Of a DNA stretch of 64,000 nucleotides, positions 14,072-18,477 are shown piece by piece. The translations under genes and the position numbers were made by a program. Position 1 is the first letter of the stretch. Each line of letters opens with the position of its first letter. The stretch covers positions 1,267,773 through 1,331,772 of the forward strand of contig NZ_CP030040.1 of assembly GCF_003260995.1 (NCBI RefSeq). Reading direction: 5' to 3'. The stretch is from Acetobacterium sp. KB-1 (GTDB lineage: Bacteria; Bacillota; Clostridia; Eubacteriales; Eubacteriaceae). Under the pieces are notes generated by a model. That model was not told the origin of the DNA. It searched no databases and saw nothing but the letters and a program-made list of their open reading frames with translations.

Positions 14072-14098
14072 CCGTTGCTACAATTAAAAACAACCACA

Positions 14099-14148
14099 AA
14101 AAAGACTAATGCCGATTCCACGCTTTTACCTGTAGAATCGGCTTAGTC
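14099..14148. terminator. Terminator of ncRNA copy A (also placed to end the cyclase gene)
   Basis: GACTA-x2-GCCGATTC pairs with GAATCGGC-x2-TAGTC, with a run of T on the minus strand (CTTTTTT). It lies 28 bp after the cyclase stop. On the minus strand it ends the unit that starts at ~14583. The same position in copy B is occupied by a hairpin with different arm sequences, so the structure, not the sequence, is conserved. Confidence 0.8.
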
Positions 14149-14166
14149 CAAAATCTCTGTTGTCAT
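14143..14166 (-). other. Seven-codon mini-ORF at the 3' end of ncRNA copy A
   Basis: ATG-ACA-ACA-GAG-ATT-TTG-GAC-TAA (peptide MTTEILD), preceded by AGGAGG with an 11-nt spacer. Its stop codon lies inside the foot of the terminator stem. Copy B encodes the same peptide with two silent or stop-codon changes. Confidence 0.4.
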
Positions 14167-14589
14167 CCGTTTGGATTCCTCCTCTGATTTTTTCATCAAT
14201 TCTCTTCTTCTCACTACTAAATGTAAATCTTGCCAACTTTTTGATGTTTTTACTTTTAAGATCCGATTCGTTTTATTCTCACTTGATCATTATTTACTGG
14301 ATTCTTTACTTGGTATCTTTGATCTAAGAACATTTTCTCGTTTCCAATTCTTTTCATTGGATGTGGTTTTCAGAAACCGTGAGAACTTTTCTTTTTTCAT
14401 TCATACTTTTCTTTTATCGTTCATTTAATTCGTTGTGAGTTGACCTTCTTATCTTAATTTCATAACAATCTGTTTTCTTTAATCTAATCAATTTAACCAG
14501 TCTTTAGGTGATCTGAGTTATCTCAATTATCTTTAAGGGCGTCGGTTCGTATTTACTTTTATAGGGTCAGTTGATCTTTGATTAACTCT

Positions 14590-14617
14590 ATTATAACACC
14601 TTTTTCTAATCTGTAAA
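14590..14617 (-). promoter_or_regulatory. Promoter of ncRNA copy A
   Basis: Minus strand: TTTACA (14617-14612), 16-bp spacer, perfect TATAAT (14595-14590). Copy B has the same layout. Confidence 0.65.
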
Positions 14618-14775
14618 TAGTTTTTTTGTAAACGTTTGTATATTTTTTGTATAGCCTTCGCGTCAAACAATTGTTTAGTTGTTTACCAACTACTTGGATG
14701 CCAGCAAACACGTAATCTAAAAAAAATCGTCCAAGTATTGACTTGGACGATCCTTCTTATCGCCATGAGTAATTT

Positions 14776-16047
14776 TTATTTAAATACTTTTATCTTTAAC
14801 TCGCTCGCACTGCTCGCATCCAGATGGTCAATGATATTTAAATTTTCCAATGCAATTTTTCGAGTGAATAAATACCGAACCCGTTCTTCAAAAGCTTCCG
14901 GAAACGCTTCAGCCAGGCTGAGATCCCGGGCAATAGCACGGCTTCTGCCCTTGCCATTATTGTGACAAAGCACCCATTTGTCCTGGGTGATGCTAAACAC
15001 ATCGGCTGTGTTGGTTGGACCTGGACGAAGATAAGAGGTCATCGCCTGTTCTGCTTTTTCCGTCGAGTCGCCACACCCCACGGTGAGAAAAACACATGCC
15101 GGATGATCGGTAAGAGTTTTTGTAAAAGCTTCTTTGGTTCCCTCAATGAGCTGTAGCAATTCGGGCCCTATCTGGTCGTTTGTTTCAAAACAACCCAGAT
15201 TTTTCCGAGCCTTTAAAATATCAAAACACTCCCCTTTTAAATCCTCCACCCGTTTCCCGCCGTCGGTAAAGAGGAATTGAGAATAATTATAAAAGTCCCC
15301 GGTGATACCTGATCCGAATTCATAAGCAACAATCTGCTGCTTCTTTTCATCATATTTACAGCCAAACCGTCGACGATGCTGTTGACCTTTAGCGGTTGCC
15401 TTGGTCTTTAGTCCATTGGCTTCAATATAATACCCTTTATTTTTCTTGTTGTTGTAAAGATTTTTGCGATACCCCGATTTATAGGCTTGCCATGAATATT
15501 TGCATTCAATGAGCACCATCTCGTGCTTTCCATTCTGCTTAACCTTAGAAATAGCAACCATATCCAGTCGGCCCAACGAGGTGGCTTCAGGTGCGTAGTT
15601 TAAATCCACACAGTACCAGTTCGAATCCGGATTAGCATTGTTATTACAGGCAATGATCCCCTGATATTTTTGTCCCAGTGGCCCGGCTTTTGCTTCAATG
15701 GGAGCACTTTCAACCAGGGCATTTTCGACATTTTCTTTGAGTTCCGGGTAAGATTCAACAAAGGCGGAAACAAATTCCTGGTTAAAAGGAAAGATCATCA
15801 CATCCGCTTTCTGGGTGAATTTCAGTCCGCAAAATGCGGTTCGATCAATAAAAAATTTACTGATTTTAACGTGGCATTGCTGATCTTCTGTATAGATCAG
15901 CTCCATCATGTTTTTACCCCAATAATATAAGATGATGTTCTCGTTTCGAATACCTAAAAATAATTCTTTGTTTCCAATAACCCTATTTTTTAAAAAAGCT
16001 TCCACTTCTGGAATGCTTAGTAATTTTTCTATGTTTCCTCTTGGCAA
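14776..16047 (-). CDS. Candidate PD-(D/E)XK-type nuclease of unknown family
   Basis: 423 aa from a TTG at 16047, chosen because GGAGG lies 8 nt upstream; the ATG at 16098 has no ribosome site. No close family is recognised. Residues ~160-185 read GRLDMVAIS, then about ten residues later MVLIECKYSW. This gives Asp162-x18-Glu181-x-Lys183, the spacing and hydrophobic context of a PD-(D/E)XK restriction-endonuclease-like core. A basic patch follows (around KATAKGQQHRRRFG). No signal peptide, membrane helix, helicase or methyltransferase is attached. The gene is bracketed by two paralogous non-coding units in the same orientation (14099-14583 and 16204-16683). The upstream unit's terminator lies ~150 bp before the start. 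The local arrangement looks like an accessory cassette. Nuclease activity is inferred from one motif. Confidence 0.6.
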   Translation of the reverse strand: MPRGNIEKLLSIPEVEAFLKNRVIGNKELFLGIRNENIILYYWGKNMMELIYTEDQQCHVKISKFFIDRTAFCGLKFTQKADVMIFPFNQEFVSAFVESYPELKENVENALVESAPIEAKAGPLGQKYQGIIACNNNANPDSNWYCVDLNYAPEATSLGRLDMVAISKVKQNGKHEMVLIECKYSWQAYKSGYRKNLYNNKKNKGYYIEANGLKTKATAKGQQHRRRFGCKYDEKKQQIVAYEFGSGITGDFYNYSQFLFTDGGKRVEDLKGECFDILKARKNLGCFETNDQIGPELLQLIEGTKEAFTKTLTDHPACVFLTVGCGDSTEKAEQAMTSYLRPGPTNTADVFSITQDKWVLCHNNGKGRSRAIARDLSLAEAFPEAFEERVRYLFTRKIALENLNIIDHLDASSASELKIKVFK

Positions 16048-16203
16048 ATAAATTTCCTCCGATACTATTTGTATACATAATTGCACTGAATGGTCCATGA
16101 GTTACCAACAAATATTCAATGCTGTCTCGACGGATTATATAATTTTACAATTAAAGTTTATTATAACCTTTATAATATAAAGACGCAACCAAGATTTTTT
16201 TAA

Positions 16204-16256
16204 CAAAAAAGACTAAGACCGATTTTACAGTTTCATCTGTAAAACCGGTCTAGTCT
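16204..16256 (-). terminator. Terminator of ncRNA copy B
   Basis: ACCGATTTTACAG pairs with CTGTAAAACCGGT, extended by GACTA/TAGTC, followed on the minus strand by TCTTTTTTG. It separates copy B from the nuclease gene, about 150 bp before that gene's TTG. Confidence 0.85.
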
Positions 16257-16273
16257 AAAATCTCTGTTGTCAT
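16250..16273 (-). other. Seven-codon mini-ORF at the 3' end of ncRNA copy B
   Basis: Encodes MTTEILD, as in copy A. The Leu codon is TTA instead of TTG and the stop is TAG instead of TAA. AAGGAG lies 9 nt upstream. The stop codon overlaps the base of the terminator stem, so a ribosome finishing here could affect hairpin formation. Confidence 0.4.
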
Positions 16274-16689
16274 CCGTTTGGACTCCTTCTGTTGATTTTA
16301 CCAAAAATCTTCTTTTTCGCTTTTCTTTTAAACTCCGCCAACTTTTTGGAATCATCTTACTCTTTAGAATGGATCTGTTTAACTCATTCACATCATTCAG
16401 AAATCATACTGCCATCATCTTCACCGAATGGTTTTTCTTGATACCCAATGATCGTTGGCTATCTCTGTTTGATGTCTTTGAGGTTTCATCCGTTCTTCAT
16501 TTCGGAGCAATCTGTTTTCTCATTCAAATTTTTCCCACTGCCCATAAAAGAATCAATTGTCCATTAACTAATTTTCTCAGCTAACCCTGGCAATTTTTAT
16601 TTTTCTGGTGAGTCGTGCGACCGTCTATGATTCAATAACCGAAATCATTGAGTCAAGAAAAGGATTAGGTTGATCTTTGGTTCATTTAT

Positions 16690-16717
16690 AGTATATCACT
16701 TTATTCGCATAAGTAAA
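16690..16717 (-). promoter_or_regulatory. Promoter of ncRNA copy B
   Basis: Minus strand: TTTACT (16717-16712), 16-bp spacer, TATACT (16695-16690). Same spacing as copy A. Confidence 0.6.
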
Positions 16718-16882
16718 TAGACAAGCTGTAAATGTTTGTATTGATTTTTCTAACAATAATAACCACAATGTAAAAATTGGCCGATTCTTACCTAATTATC
16801 TATGATTCTCTCTTTAATAAAACACAGTGGAACAAAAATATTTATTGCTTGGTTGAATCTTTGTATTTTTTTTAAAGAATGA

Positions 16883-17046: not shown

Positions 17047-18477
17047 ATGAAATTTGTTAGAAGTATTTTTTTATGCATTGTTTTTGCTCTGTCATTGGGG
17101 ATTTTTCCTTCTGCTGCATTGGCTGAGGAAACCACTGTCGAAGGCGCTGCGATCACAGGCCTCGATGCCCAACCACTTGTGGAAACCCGGGAGATGCTCC
17201 CCGGTGATGTTGCCCCAGATCCAGGTTGGCCAGACGAAGCCTATTTAGATGGATCAATGAGCACTTCAGCGGTGTTCTCCCCGCGACTTACCGCCCCAAC
17301 AACGGACAATGATTATTTTTTTTCCAAAAACATTTTTTATCTCGCTGGCTACGGTATGCCAAACTGTACCGCTTATGCCTGGGGACGAGCCTATGAGATC
17401 CTGGGAAGCAAACCTAAATTAAGCAACGGTAATGCCAATCAGTTCTGGGGATATAACCAAAACAGCGGTGCCTATCCTCACGGAACGACGCCAAAACTGG
17501 GAGCAATTCTGTGCTGGGACGGCAATTCATATGGTCACGTTGCCGTTGTTGAAAAAATTGAAGGCAACAAGGTCACTGTTTCAGAATCATCCTGGAGCGG
17601 CTCGTTCTTTTACACCAACACCTTCACTGCCGGTTCTGAGGACTCCGTCTCTGTGGGTGGATTCCAGGGCTATATCTATATTGATGATTTTGATCCGGCA
17701 GTCCCCCCAGACACCACCCCGCCAACAATAACTAATGCTCGGATCACTGATGTCAGTGATGACGGCTTTACGATCACCTGTGACGTGACCGATACTGATT
17801 CGGGAATCGATTCTGTTTATTTCCCAACCTGGACCGATGCAAACGGTCAGGATGATATTATCTGGCATCGCGCTTCAATAAGTGGCAATACCGCATCTTT
17901 CCGGGTTTTATACAGCCAACATAACAATGAATTTGGAACCTATTCGGTTCATGTCTATGCTTATGACAAAGCCGGAAATAGTTCTGCTACAGCGTTAAGC
18001 CTTTCGGCACAAAAAAGCATAACTTGTTCCTATCAAACCCATATCCAGGACGTTGGCTGGCAGGATTGGAAAACAAACGGTCAGATCAGTGGCACCTCCG
18101 GGGAGTCCAAACGTCTAGAAGCCATTGGCATTCGATTGGATAACATGGGTTATGATCTCGGCATTGAGTATCGTACCCATATCCAGAACATTGGCTGGCA
18201 AGATTGGAAACGCAACTGTGAAGTAAGCGGCACCTCCAACCAGGGCTTACGTTTAGAGGCGATTGAGGTCAGACTAACCGGTGCCGATGCTTATCGATAC
18301 GACGTTTATTACCGGGTTCATGCCGAGAACGTCGGCTGGTTGGACTGGGCTAAAAACGGTGGCAGTTCTGGTACTGAAGGCTTCGGCTACCGGCTTGAAG
18401 CCATCGAAGTGATCGTCGTACCGACCGGTTCACCGGCACCAGGAGCCACTATACGGGCTTTTCAAAGCAATCATTAA
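17047..18477 (+). CDS. Secreted CHAP-domain peptidoglycan hydrolase with three ChW repeats
   Basis: 476 aa from the ATG at 17047, preceded by GGAGGATACTGGAA. Residues 1-~28 are a signal peptide ending in SAALA-EE. Residues ~95-190 form a CHAP amidase/endopeptidase domain with catalytic Cys107 (in NCTAYAWG) and His164 (in GHVAVVE). Residues ~225-320 match the GBS-Bsp-like beta domain (DTDSGIDSVYF). Three ChW repeats start near residues 329, 375 and 422, each with the GWQDW-type core and RLEAI. ChW repeats are typical of clostridial surface/secreted proteins. It probably cleaves peptidoglycan cross-links outside the cell. It stands alone with its own promoter and terminator, and shares its ChW architecture with the subtilase at 28662-30656. 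Confidence 0.92.
   Translation: MKFVRSIFLCIVFALSLGIFPSAALAEETTVEGAAITGLDAQPLVETREMLPGDVAPDPGWPDEAYLDGSMSTSAVFSPRLTAPTTDNDYFFSKNIFYLAGYGMPNCTAYAWGRAYEILGSKPKLSNGNANQFWGYNQNSGAYPHGTTPKLGAILCWDGNSYGHVAVVEKIEGNKVTVSESSWSGSFFYTNTFTAGSEDSVSVGGFQGYIYIDDFDPAVPPDTTPPTITNARITDVSDDGFTITCDVTDTDSGIDSVYFPTWTDANGQDDIIWHRASISGNTASFRVLYSQHNNEFGTYSVHVYAYDKAGNSSATALSLSAQKSITCSYQTHIQDVGWQDWKTNGQISGTSGESKRLEAIGIRLDNMGYDLGIEYRTHIQNIGWQDWKRNCEVSGTSNQGLRLEAIEVRLTGADAYRYDVYYRVHAENVGWLDWAKNGGSSGTEGFGYRLEAIEVIVVPTGSPAPGATIRAFQSNH

Follow-up and report, generated by a model that had tools for sequence, protein, structure and literature searches.

An apparently uncatalogued family of predicted structured RNAs ending in a putative seven-codon open reading frame in Acetobacterium and its relatives

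Staphylococcal RNAIII is an RNA of about 514 nucleotides (nt) that encodes delta-haemolysin in an open reading frame (ORF) of 26 codons. OLE and other classes of large non-coding RNA are large and structured and occur mostly in anaerobic Gram-positive bacteria, and in type III toxin-antitoxin systems an antitoxin RNA with tandem repeats lies directly upstream of the toxin gene. The lambda bar minigenes are very short ORFs of the same kind as mg2 of axe-txe. For mg2, translation is reported to alter RNA stability or to sequester ribosomes and tRNA, and strong ribosome sites are reported to favour reiterative translation (PMC8708949). Reiterative translation of ORFs of two to eight codons, without the ribosome leaving the mRNA, is reported in a second article, where it was shown in vitro for mccA and where the microcin C precursors are described as keeping a length of seven residues with variable sequence (PMC6495379). 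Here, we analysed a window of 64,000 nt from Acetobacterium sp. KB-1 (contig NZ_CP030040.1, positions 1,267,773 to 1,331,772), in which two paralogous minus-strand RNA units of about 480 nt, A and B, each with a promoter and a terminator, enclose one gene. We propose, with about an even chance of being right, that A and B, together with three other paralogs in this genome, belong to a family of trans-acting RNA genes, in which a ribosome-loading mini-ORF of seven codons would serve as a docking device. Comparison of related genomes supports the gene family, the mini-ORF, its overlap with the terminator and a helix that closes the predicted RNA.

The family shares single traits with each of these systems and departs from each in others. 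The mccA gene is alike in its conserved seven-codon length, variable peptide and terminator after the ORF (PMC6495379), whereas the RNA family has a long structured body, about five copies per genome and a stop codon inside the terminator stem. The mg2 ORF (PMC8708949) acts in cis on the following gene, while the family consists of separate genes with a 3' mini-ORF and no constant following gene. RNAIII is likewise a structured RNA of about 0.5 kb with a small ORF, but the ORF of the family has seven codons and is 3'-terminal, and the RNA is multicopy and has no Rfam match. Conserved structure, as expected of a dual-function RNA, was found in the form of the closing helix and stable consensus folds, with group D lacking excess covariation. 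The fthC upstream ORF motif also combines a ribosome site and a short ORF with a stop codon that lies in a hairpin close to an intrinsic terminator (PMC11109978); leaders of this type precede one constant gene, which the RNA family does not. Compared with OLE-type RNAs, the family has a mini-ORF and a body that diverges strongly between paralogs. No match at gathering threshold was obtained with Rfam release 15 in the window or in eight related loci, in agreement with the preliminary description of this DNA, which knew of no described RNA family or defence system with this layout. Weak scores to mir-9424, RefA9, Yfr11, sR2, CsrC and IsrM lay far below the gathering thresholds and were rejected. 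In addition, a literature search on small RNAs of Acetobacterium and Eubacterium, structured RNA motifs, heptapeptides and mini-ORFs found no description of the family. The family appears to be uncatalogued and belongs to Acetobacterium, Eubacterium and close relatives.

The two units comprise the following features, in which the starts of both RNAs are predicted.

14627–14639, minus strand: unit A operator-like element ACAAACGTTTACA, upstream of the -35 element
14590–14617, minus strand: unit A promoter, TTTACA-N16-TATAAT
14098–14583, minus strand: unit A RNA, about 486 nt, start predicted from the -10 element
14570–14582, minus strand: unit A closing helix, 5' strand AUCAAAGAUCAAC, weak pairing in this copy
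14177–14183, minus strand: unit A ribosome-binding site, AGGAGGA
14143–14166, minus strand: unit A putative seven-codon ORF, MTTEILD, conserved family-wide, stop TAA in the terminator stem
14098–14148, minus strand: unit A intrinsic terminator, which includes codon 7 and the stop of the ORF
16727–16739, minus strand: unit B operator-like element ACAAACATTTACA, upstream of the -35 element
16690–16717, minus strand: unit B promoter, TTTACT-N16-TATACT
16205–16683, minus strand: unit B RNA, about 479 nt
16657–16680, minus strand: unit B closing helix, 5' strand (CCAAAGAUCAACC...AAUCCUUUUC)
16300–16325, minus strand: unit B closing helix, 3' strand GAAAAGCGAAAAAGAAGAUUUUUGGU
16283–16289, minus strand: unit B ribosome-binding site, GAAGGAG
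16250–16273, minus strand: unit B putative seven-codon ORF, MTTEILD, stop TAG in the terminator stem
16205–16255, minus strand: unit B intrinsic terminator, which includes codon 7 and the stop of the ORF

Units A and B align over 108 nt with 78% identity (14096–14203 against 16203–16310) and share further matches in the same order. Both TTTACx-N16-TATAxT promoters reported in the preliminary description are present, and its 32-nt block (14144–14175 against 16251–16282) contains exactly one mismatch. The terminator arms diverge between the copies yet still pair, as it had also stated. With unit A as the query in its own genome, unit B was recovered at E 1.1e-22, and three additional copies had E values of 6.4e-16 to 4.6e-8; the similarity of A and B is therefore not due to chance. 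Thus the two copies described earlier are real, but the genome (3,988,268 bp) carries five full family members, the other three lying on contig C1 at about 1.120, 0.551 and 3.170 Mb. Similarly, the units do appear to be independently promoted RNAs, and we infer that they are transcribed, but the label "non-coding" does not fit their best conserved block. Both 32-nt blocks lie across a ribosome-binding site followed by ATG-ACA-ACA-GAG-ATT-TTR-GAC and a stop codon, which reads MTTEILD with synonymous TTG and TTA at codon 6 and TAA or TAG as the stop.

The conservation of this mini-ORF was evaluated using a hidden Markov model (HMM) of the 3' module, whose seed pattern spanned the ATG and codons 2–5 and excluded the stop codon. 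The model was run on the fetched loci, and 85 matches were kept after those with E above 1e-4 and terminator-only rows (mostly on the opposite strand) were dropped. The ORF had exactly seven codons in 79 of them and eight in two, and four weak matches had no ORF. Among the 80 strong matches (E ≤ 5.5e-18), the corresponding numbers were 78, two and zero. Both eight-codon ORFs are the G014 copies of locus L130 and arise from an in-frame 3-nt insertion. All three stop codons terminate the 79 seven-codon ORFs (TAG 36, TGA 33, TAA 10). In the wider family, 38 further matches comprised 27 with seven codons and a ribosome site, one with eight codons, one with ten and nine without a module, one of these nine having a seven-codon frame but no ribosome site; seven of the 27 were recounted from the ATG (MQTEPKN or MVIEQHC), six of which had an in-frame upstream GTG. 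The 12 order-level matches yielded six ORFs of seven codons, one of eight and five without an ORF (again including one seven-codon frame that lacked a ribosome site), and two of the six seven-codon modules (MTSEYNT and MTSEIKN) lie outside the family. Two additional matches had seven codons (MTIGKQN) and nine codons, the latter carrying AGA as its eighth codon where relatives have TGA. Moreover, the copies of L211 and L210 (MTIVFES, MIGVIQN, MTVVFKS) lack the GUCC motif and keep the ribosome site, the seven codons and the terminator.

An ORF-independent pattern, consisting only of the ribosome site, spacer and ATG, was also used to scan 84,980 species genomes. It returned 31 matches, 26 of which belong to Acetobacterium, Eubacterium and Eubacteriaceae, including two Firmicutes/Bacillota metagenome-assembled genomes (MAGs); 24 of these 26 have seven codons and two have eight. 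The other five (three Alphaproteobacteria, one archaeon and one bacterium) have 34, 36, 34, 8 and 2 codons, no hairpin followed by a T-run was found in the sequence examined around them, and they look unrelated. Many of the matches are places already counted, so that the scan is a test free of ORF bias and not a new sampling. From this comparison, we infer that the ORF is translated; its length and frame are far better supported than its peptide sequence.

The distribution of the RNA was examined with unit A as a DNA query against 61 relatives, a search proposed in the preliminary description; 18 of the 19 genus genomes matched, and so did one genome from another genus. The more complete genus genomes carry about five or more copies at recurrent but differing chromosomal places. 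Across the Acetobacterium copies, the RNA is about 350–870 nt long (with predicted ends), and the primary sequence of its body diverges strongly between paralogs. Named organisms recovered by the pattern scan include, for Acetobacterium, a woodii-labelled MAG, tundrae, paludosum, bakii, wieringae, dehalogenans and fimetarium, and for Eubacterium, callanderi, barkeri and aggregans. A covariance model matched 30 of 40 genomes in 8 of 9 genera of the family (E ≤ 0.01); the g6 match had no ORF and the g4 match had ten codons. A second model matched 35 of 67 genomes in 12 of 26 genera of the order (E ≤ 0.001), some of these matches being merely plain terminators. Seven weak matches of the first model (E 3e-4 to 0.01) and five of the second (E 5e-5 to 1e-3) were left out of the reading, several of the weak ones being the opposite strand of a known module. 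In a class-wide sample, 11 of 391 genomes matched (E ≤ 1e-4), all from the same order except for one chance-like match (G221). The other genera of the family carry one copy behind two genes, in the same arrangement as Acetobacterium group D; we take these to be a radical-SAM gene and a DUF2344-like gene. A motif scan of DUF2344-like gene loci in 24 further genomes (23 matched) found a few short frames, none convincing as a module. L212 (G013:C22:252997-253112) is a remnant that has lost the body and ribosome site and in which the promoter region adjoins the mini-ORF and terminator almost directly. L213, L215, L216, L218 and L219 form a group of decayed modules with a lost start codon or frame and no recognised promoter.

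At its base, the terminator stem consists of codon 7 and the stop codon, which in the alignment change together with the pairing 3' arm (GAC/GUC, AAC/GUU, AGC/GCU). The 5' end of the RNA, AUCAAAGAUCAACUCAAUCCUUUUC, is predicted to pair with GAAAAGUGAAAAAGAAGAUUUUUGAU just upstream of the ribosome site. For 69 copies, the duplex energy of this closing helix was -14.9 kcal/mol with its own partner, compared with -8.1 kcal/mol after single-base shuffling (own better in 67 of 69) and -12.6 kcal/mol with the 3' partners of other groups (53 of 69). The longest contiguous helix in Acetobacterium showed the same order, with 8.45 for own, 8.11 for swapped (own better in 49 of 69) and 6.04 for shuffled partners (66 of 69), so that swapping partners within the genus costs little. 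In 15 copies of other genera, the values were 7.73 for own, 5.90 for swapped (12 of 15) and 5.67 for shuffled partners (13 of 15). Changed helices that still pair were seen in these genera as UCAAUAAAUC/GAUUUAUUGA, UUAAUUGAAU/AUUCAAUUAA and AUCAAUU/AAUUGAU, together with a 15-bp helix in L146. A pairing of the 5' CCUUUUC with the ribosome-binding site itself was considered and dropped in favour of the nested closing helix, whose partner is the purine stretch upstream of that site. Furthermore, in every one of the five ortholog groups the consensus fold was more stable than those of 20 column shuffles (z -8.0 to -15.5), with the folds covering 51 of the 69 copies, the shuffles also breaking neighbour composition and the z values including the terminator. 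Pairs with changes on both sides exceeded the shuffle maximum in group A (9 vs. 7), group B (9 vs. 6), group C (8 vs. 4) and group E (8 vs. 7). The bodies of L196, L146, L203, L205 and L207 contain a hairpin of varying stem with GCAUAUAGAGAC or GCAUAUAGAGUC in its loop; it has no Rfam match and was not noticed in the Acetobacterium copies looked at.

A near-palindromic element, ACAAAC(G/A)TTTACA, lies upstream of the -35 element in both A and B and is almost private to the RNA family in the genome. The exact form ACAAACGTTTACA occurs at three places in the 4.0-Mb genome, all of them promoters of this family; with one mismatch, ten more places were found, including unit B, compared with five for a reversed control pattern. 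When the ORF-bearing copies were scanned with one mismatch allowed, 69 of 81 had the element at promoter spacing. This near-privacy implies a dedicated regulator of the family. The ACAAACGTTTACA element resembles operators of the LacI/CcpA type. Two members from other families of the order (L258:2800-3400 and L259:2300-2900, both plus strand; MTSEYNT and MTSEIKN) share common flanking sequence. In place of the Acetobacterium operator, they have GTTTAA-like and GGGTAT elements, presumably reminiscent of sigma-B promoters, which hints at stress control of these members.

The genes around the RNA copies are diverse, which argues for action in trans. One neighbour type is a diguanylate cyclase (Pfam GGDEF for the window copy), and others are presumably a universal-stress-protein-like gene, a Crp-like regulator, an NDK-like kinase and a DUF2344-like gene, among others. 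In most genomes, groups B, D and E are followed at a distance of about 30–350 nt by a co-directional gene, and the gene after groups A and C is convergent. No constant, functionally related downstream gene was found; each group has other downstream genes, and these show no evident shared pathway.

In the mechanism that we consider most likely, each gene would be expressed from its own promoter, in Acetobacterium under the near-private operator, and the 5' end of the RNA would pair upstream of a 3' tail made up of the strong ribosome site, the seven-codon ORF and the terminator. The closing helix would keep the body together, and the body would be the effector acting in trans. With the stop codon placed within the terminator stem, a ribosome that stays on the seven codons or cycles over them would have to open the 3' hairpin in each round and should thereby expose the 3' end of the RNA. 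Ribosome availability would then set RNA stability, folding or access to partners, and abundant RNA would in turn occupy ribosomes. We tentatively suggest a more specific version, which we think more probably wrong than right: a multicopy, self-closed riboregulator that parks ribosomes on an ORF within the length range of reiterative translation. It would capture ribosomes, have its 3' hairpin opened by them, or both, so that its level and activity report and tune translation capacity in acetogens. If the proposal is true, a conserved seven-codon gene, present in several copies within a large structured RNA, would rank with the smallest known genes that encode a protein. Such a gene is too short for the usual gene callers, and the RNA has no Rfam model. 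The family would also offer a natural case for asking why ORF length stays near seven codons, as in the microcin C precursors, without a known peptide-modifying partner. The hosts are acetogens of biotechnological interest, and differential RNA sequencing (dRNA-Seq) and ribosome profiling (Ribo-Seq) data are published for A. woodii and E. limosum (PMC8407422, PMC6260860).

Several observations weigh against a translated, docking mini-ORF in a self-closed RNA. The ratio of nonsynonymous to synonymous change (pN/pS) over 48 distinct ORFs was 0.53 for codons 2–6, 0.43 for codons 2–5 and 0.63 for codons 2–7, and 24 of 300 column permutations reached 0.53, while the shifted frames gave 1.05 and 0.67; selection at the peptide level is therefore not proven by this ratio. 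An RNA-level motif appears to add to the constraint around the ATG, since the nucleotides there are also highly conserved, and the searches were seeded with that region. The GTGAGTCC groups have a GTG in frame within the ribosome site, and a start there could lengthen the ORF to 12 codons; the other groups either lack this GTG or carry it out of frame, and the ATG was therefore taken as the start. In addition, the closing helix is poor in unit A itself and little of it is seen in L253, L256 and L201. Group D contains three covarying pairs, compared with a shuffle mean of 2.9 and a maximum of 7, and so shows no excess.

The main rival to a dual RNA is that the heptapeptide itself is the product, the RNA being a mini-mRNA for a formylated seven-residue signal, inhibitor or modification substrate whose long 5' part regulates translation. 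We consider this unlikely, though a serious contender. The residues M-T-[S/T]-E-[I/V] recur, and Ser3 is encoded by TCA or TCT in Acetobacterium and by AGT in G020, G027, G041 and G051, which fits constraint at the amino-acid level. The pN/pS of 0.43 over codons 2–5 also favours the peptide. Moreover, microcin C precursors likewise have seven residues and a variable sequence (PMC6495379). However, paralogs differ almost entirely (MTVVFKS, MIGVIQN, MKTQIKR, MVIEQHC), seven residues hold no secretion signal, and the identity of codon 7, which lies in the terminator stem, is partly structural. No MccB-type gene was seen near the copies, and each of the three ThiF-family matches in the KB-1 genome is separated from every RNA copy by over 0.5 Mb; a microcin C-like cluster was rejected on this ground.

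A purely non-coding RNA, in which the 3' block merely mimics a ribosome site and ORF, would account for the strong nucleotide conservation around the ATG and for the constraint that the terminator stem places on codon 7 and the stop codon. Such mimicry is improbable given the fixed length of seven to eight codons with three different stop codons in nine genera, the in-frame insertion of a whole codon in both G014 copies of L130, the survival of the ORF in L210 and L211, which have lost the flanking GUCC motif, and the return of seven to eight codons by the ORF-independent scan. Furthermore, the ten modules that have lost the ORF lack a recognised promoter: no 5' end was recognised in the four ORF-less HMM matches and no promoter in six further modules (L213, L215, L216, L218, L219 and L318). 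Two modules without a recognised promoter, L214 and L217, keep the ORF.

A leader-peptide attenuator, in which ribosomes on the mini-ORF would keep the overlapping terminator from acting and let transcription run on into the following gene, would fit the stop codon inside the terminator stem and the co-directional gene behind groups B, D and E. We judge it quite improbable: groups A and C mostly end at a convergent gene, the downstream genes differ by group, codons 6 and 7 have no single amino-acid bias, and several hundred nt would be an uncommon length for a leader.

The gene between A and B raised another possibility, that of an RNA-guarded or RNA-regulated nuclease cassette, proposed in the preliminary description together with a likeness to the gene order of type III toxin-antitoxin loci.

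14776–16098, minus strand: neighbouring protein gene, 440 amino acids, nuclease label unproven, counted outside the RNA system

From its first ATG, the ORF encodes 440 amino acids and not 423, as given earlier. Homologs were found in 13 of 61 genomes, all within the genus, and no match was obtained in the 42 genomes outside it, though other genera carry the RNA module. In seven genomes (G000, G001, G002, G003, G005, G010 and G011), the gene has an RNA copy on either side. G004 has it next to a single copy, as does G015, where it is a fragment at the end of a contig. In G007 (which has no RNA at all), G009, G013 and G017, it is unlinked to the RNA. Conversely, G006, G008, G012, G014, G016 and G018 have the RNA without the protein, and in G008 and G012 A and B are adjacent with no protein gene between them. 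Among the 19 genus genomes, 18 carry the RNA and 13 have a match to the protein, RNA copies lie mostly away from the protein gene, and RNA units are widespread with no nuclease gene linked to them, an outcome that the preliminary description had named as refuting its hypothesis. Since the RNA occurs without the protein and the protein without the RNA, the gene is an incidental, occasional neighbour and not a partner. The protein may or may not be a nuclease. It has no match to Pfam above cut-off, to PADLOC or NCBIfam, or to PDB sequences at significant E, and its AlphaFold model (mean predicted local distance difference test score, pLDDT, 45.7) was too poor for use. The PD-(D/E)XK-like label given earlier is likewise unproven, as catalytic D...(D/E)xK residues are not kept among homologs: the putative IECK motif is LSCK in L084 and IKLK, IKLM or IALK in homologs of about 60% identity, so that the motif Glu is replaced in several. 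Although the layout recurs in seven of 19 genus genomes, a cassette akin to type III toxin-antitoxin loci is very improbable, as RNA and protein are decoupled both ways and do not form one locus, no tandem repeat array was found in units A and B, and the protein has neither a profile match nor a conserved motif Glu.

An inverted repeat at 14718–14759, between the unit A promoter and the end of the 440-amino-acid gene, is probably the terminator of that gene. The RNA pair is adjoined by a gene for a CHAP-domain protein with three ChW repeats (Pfam) at 17050–18474 on the plus strand, which is likely a secreted wall hydrolase.

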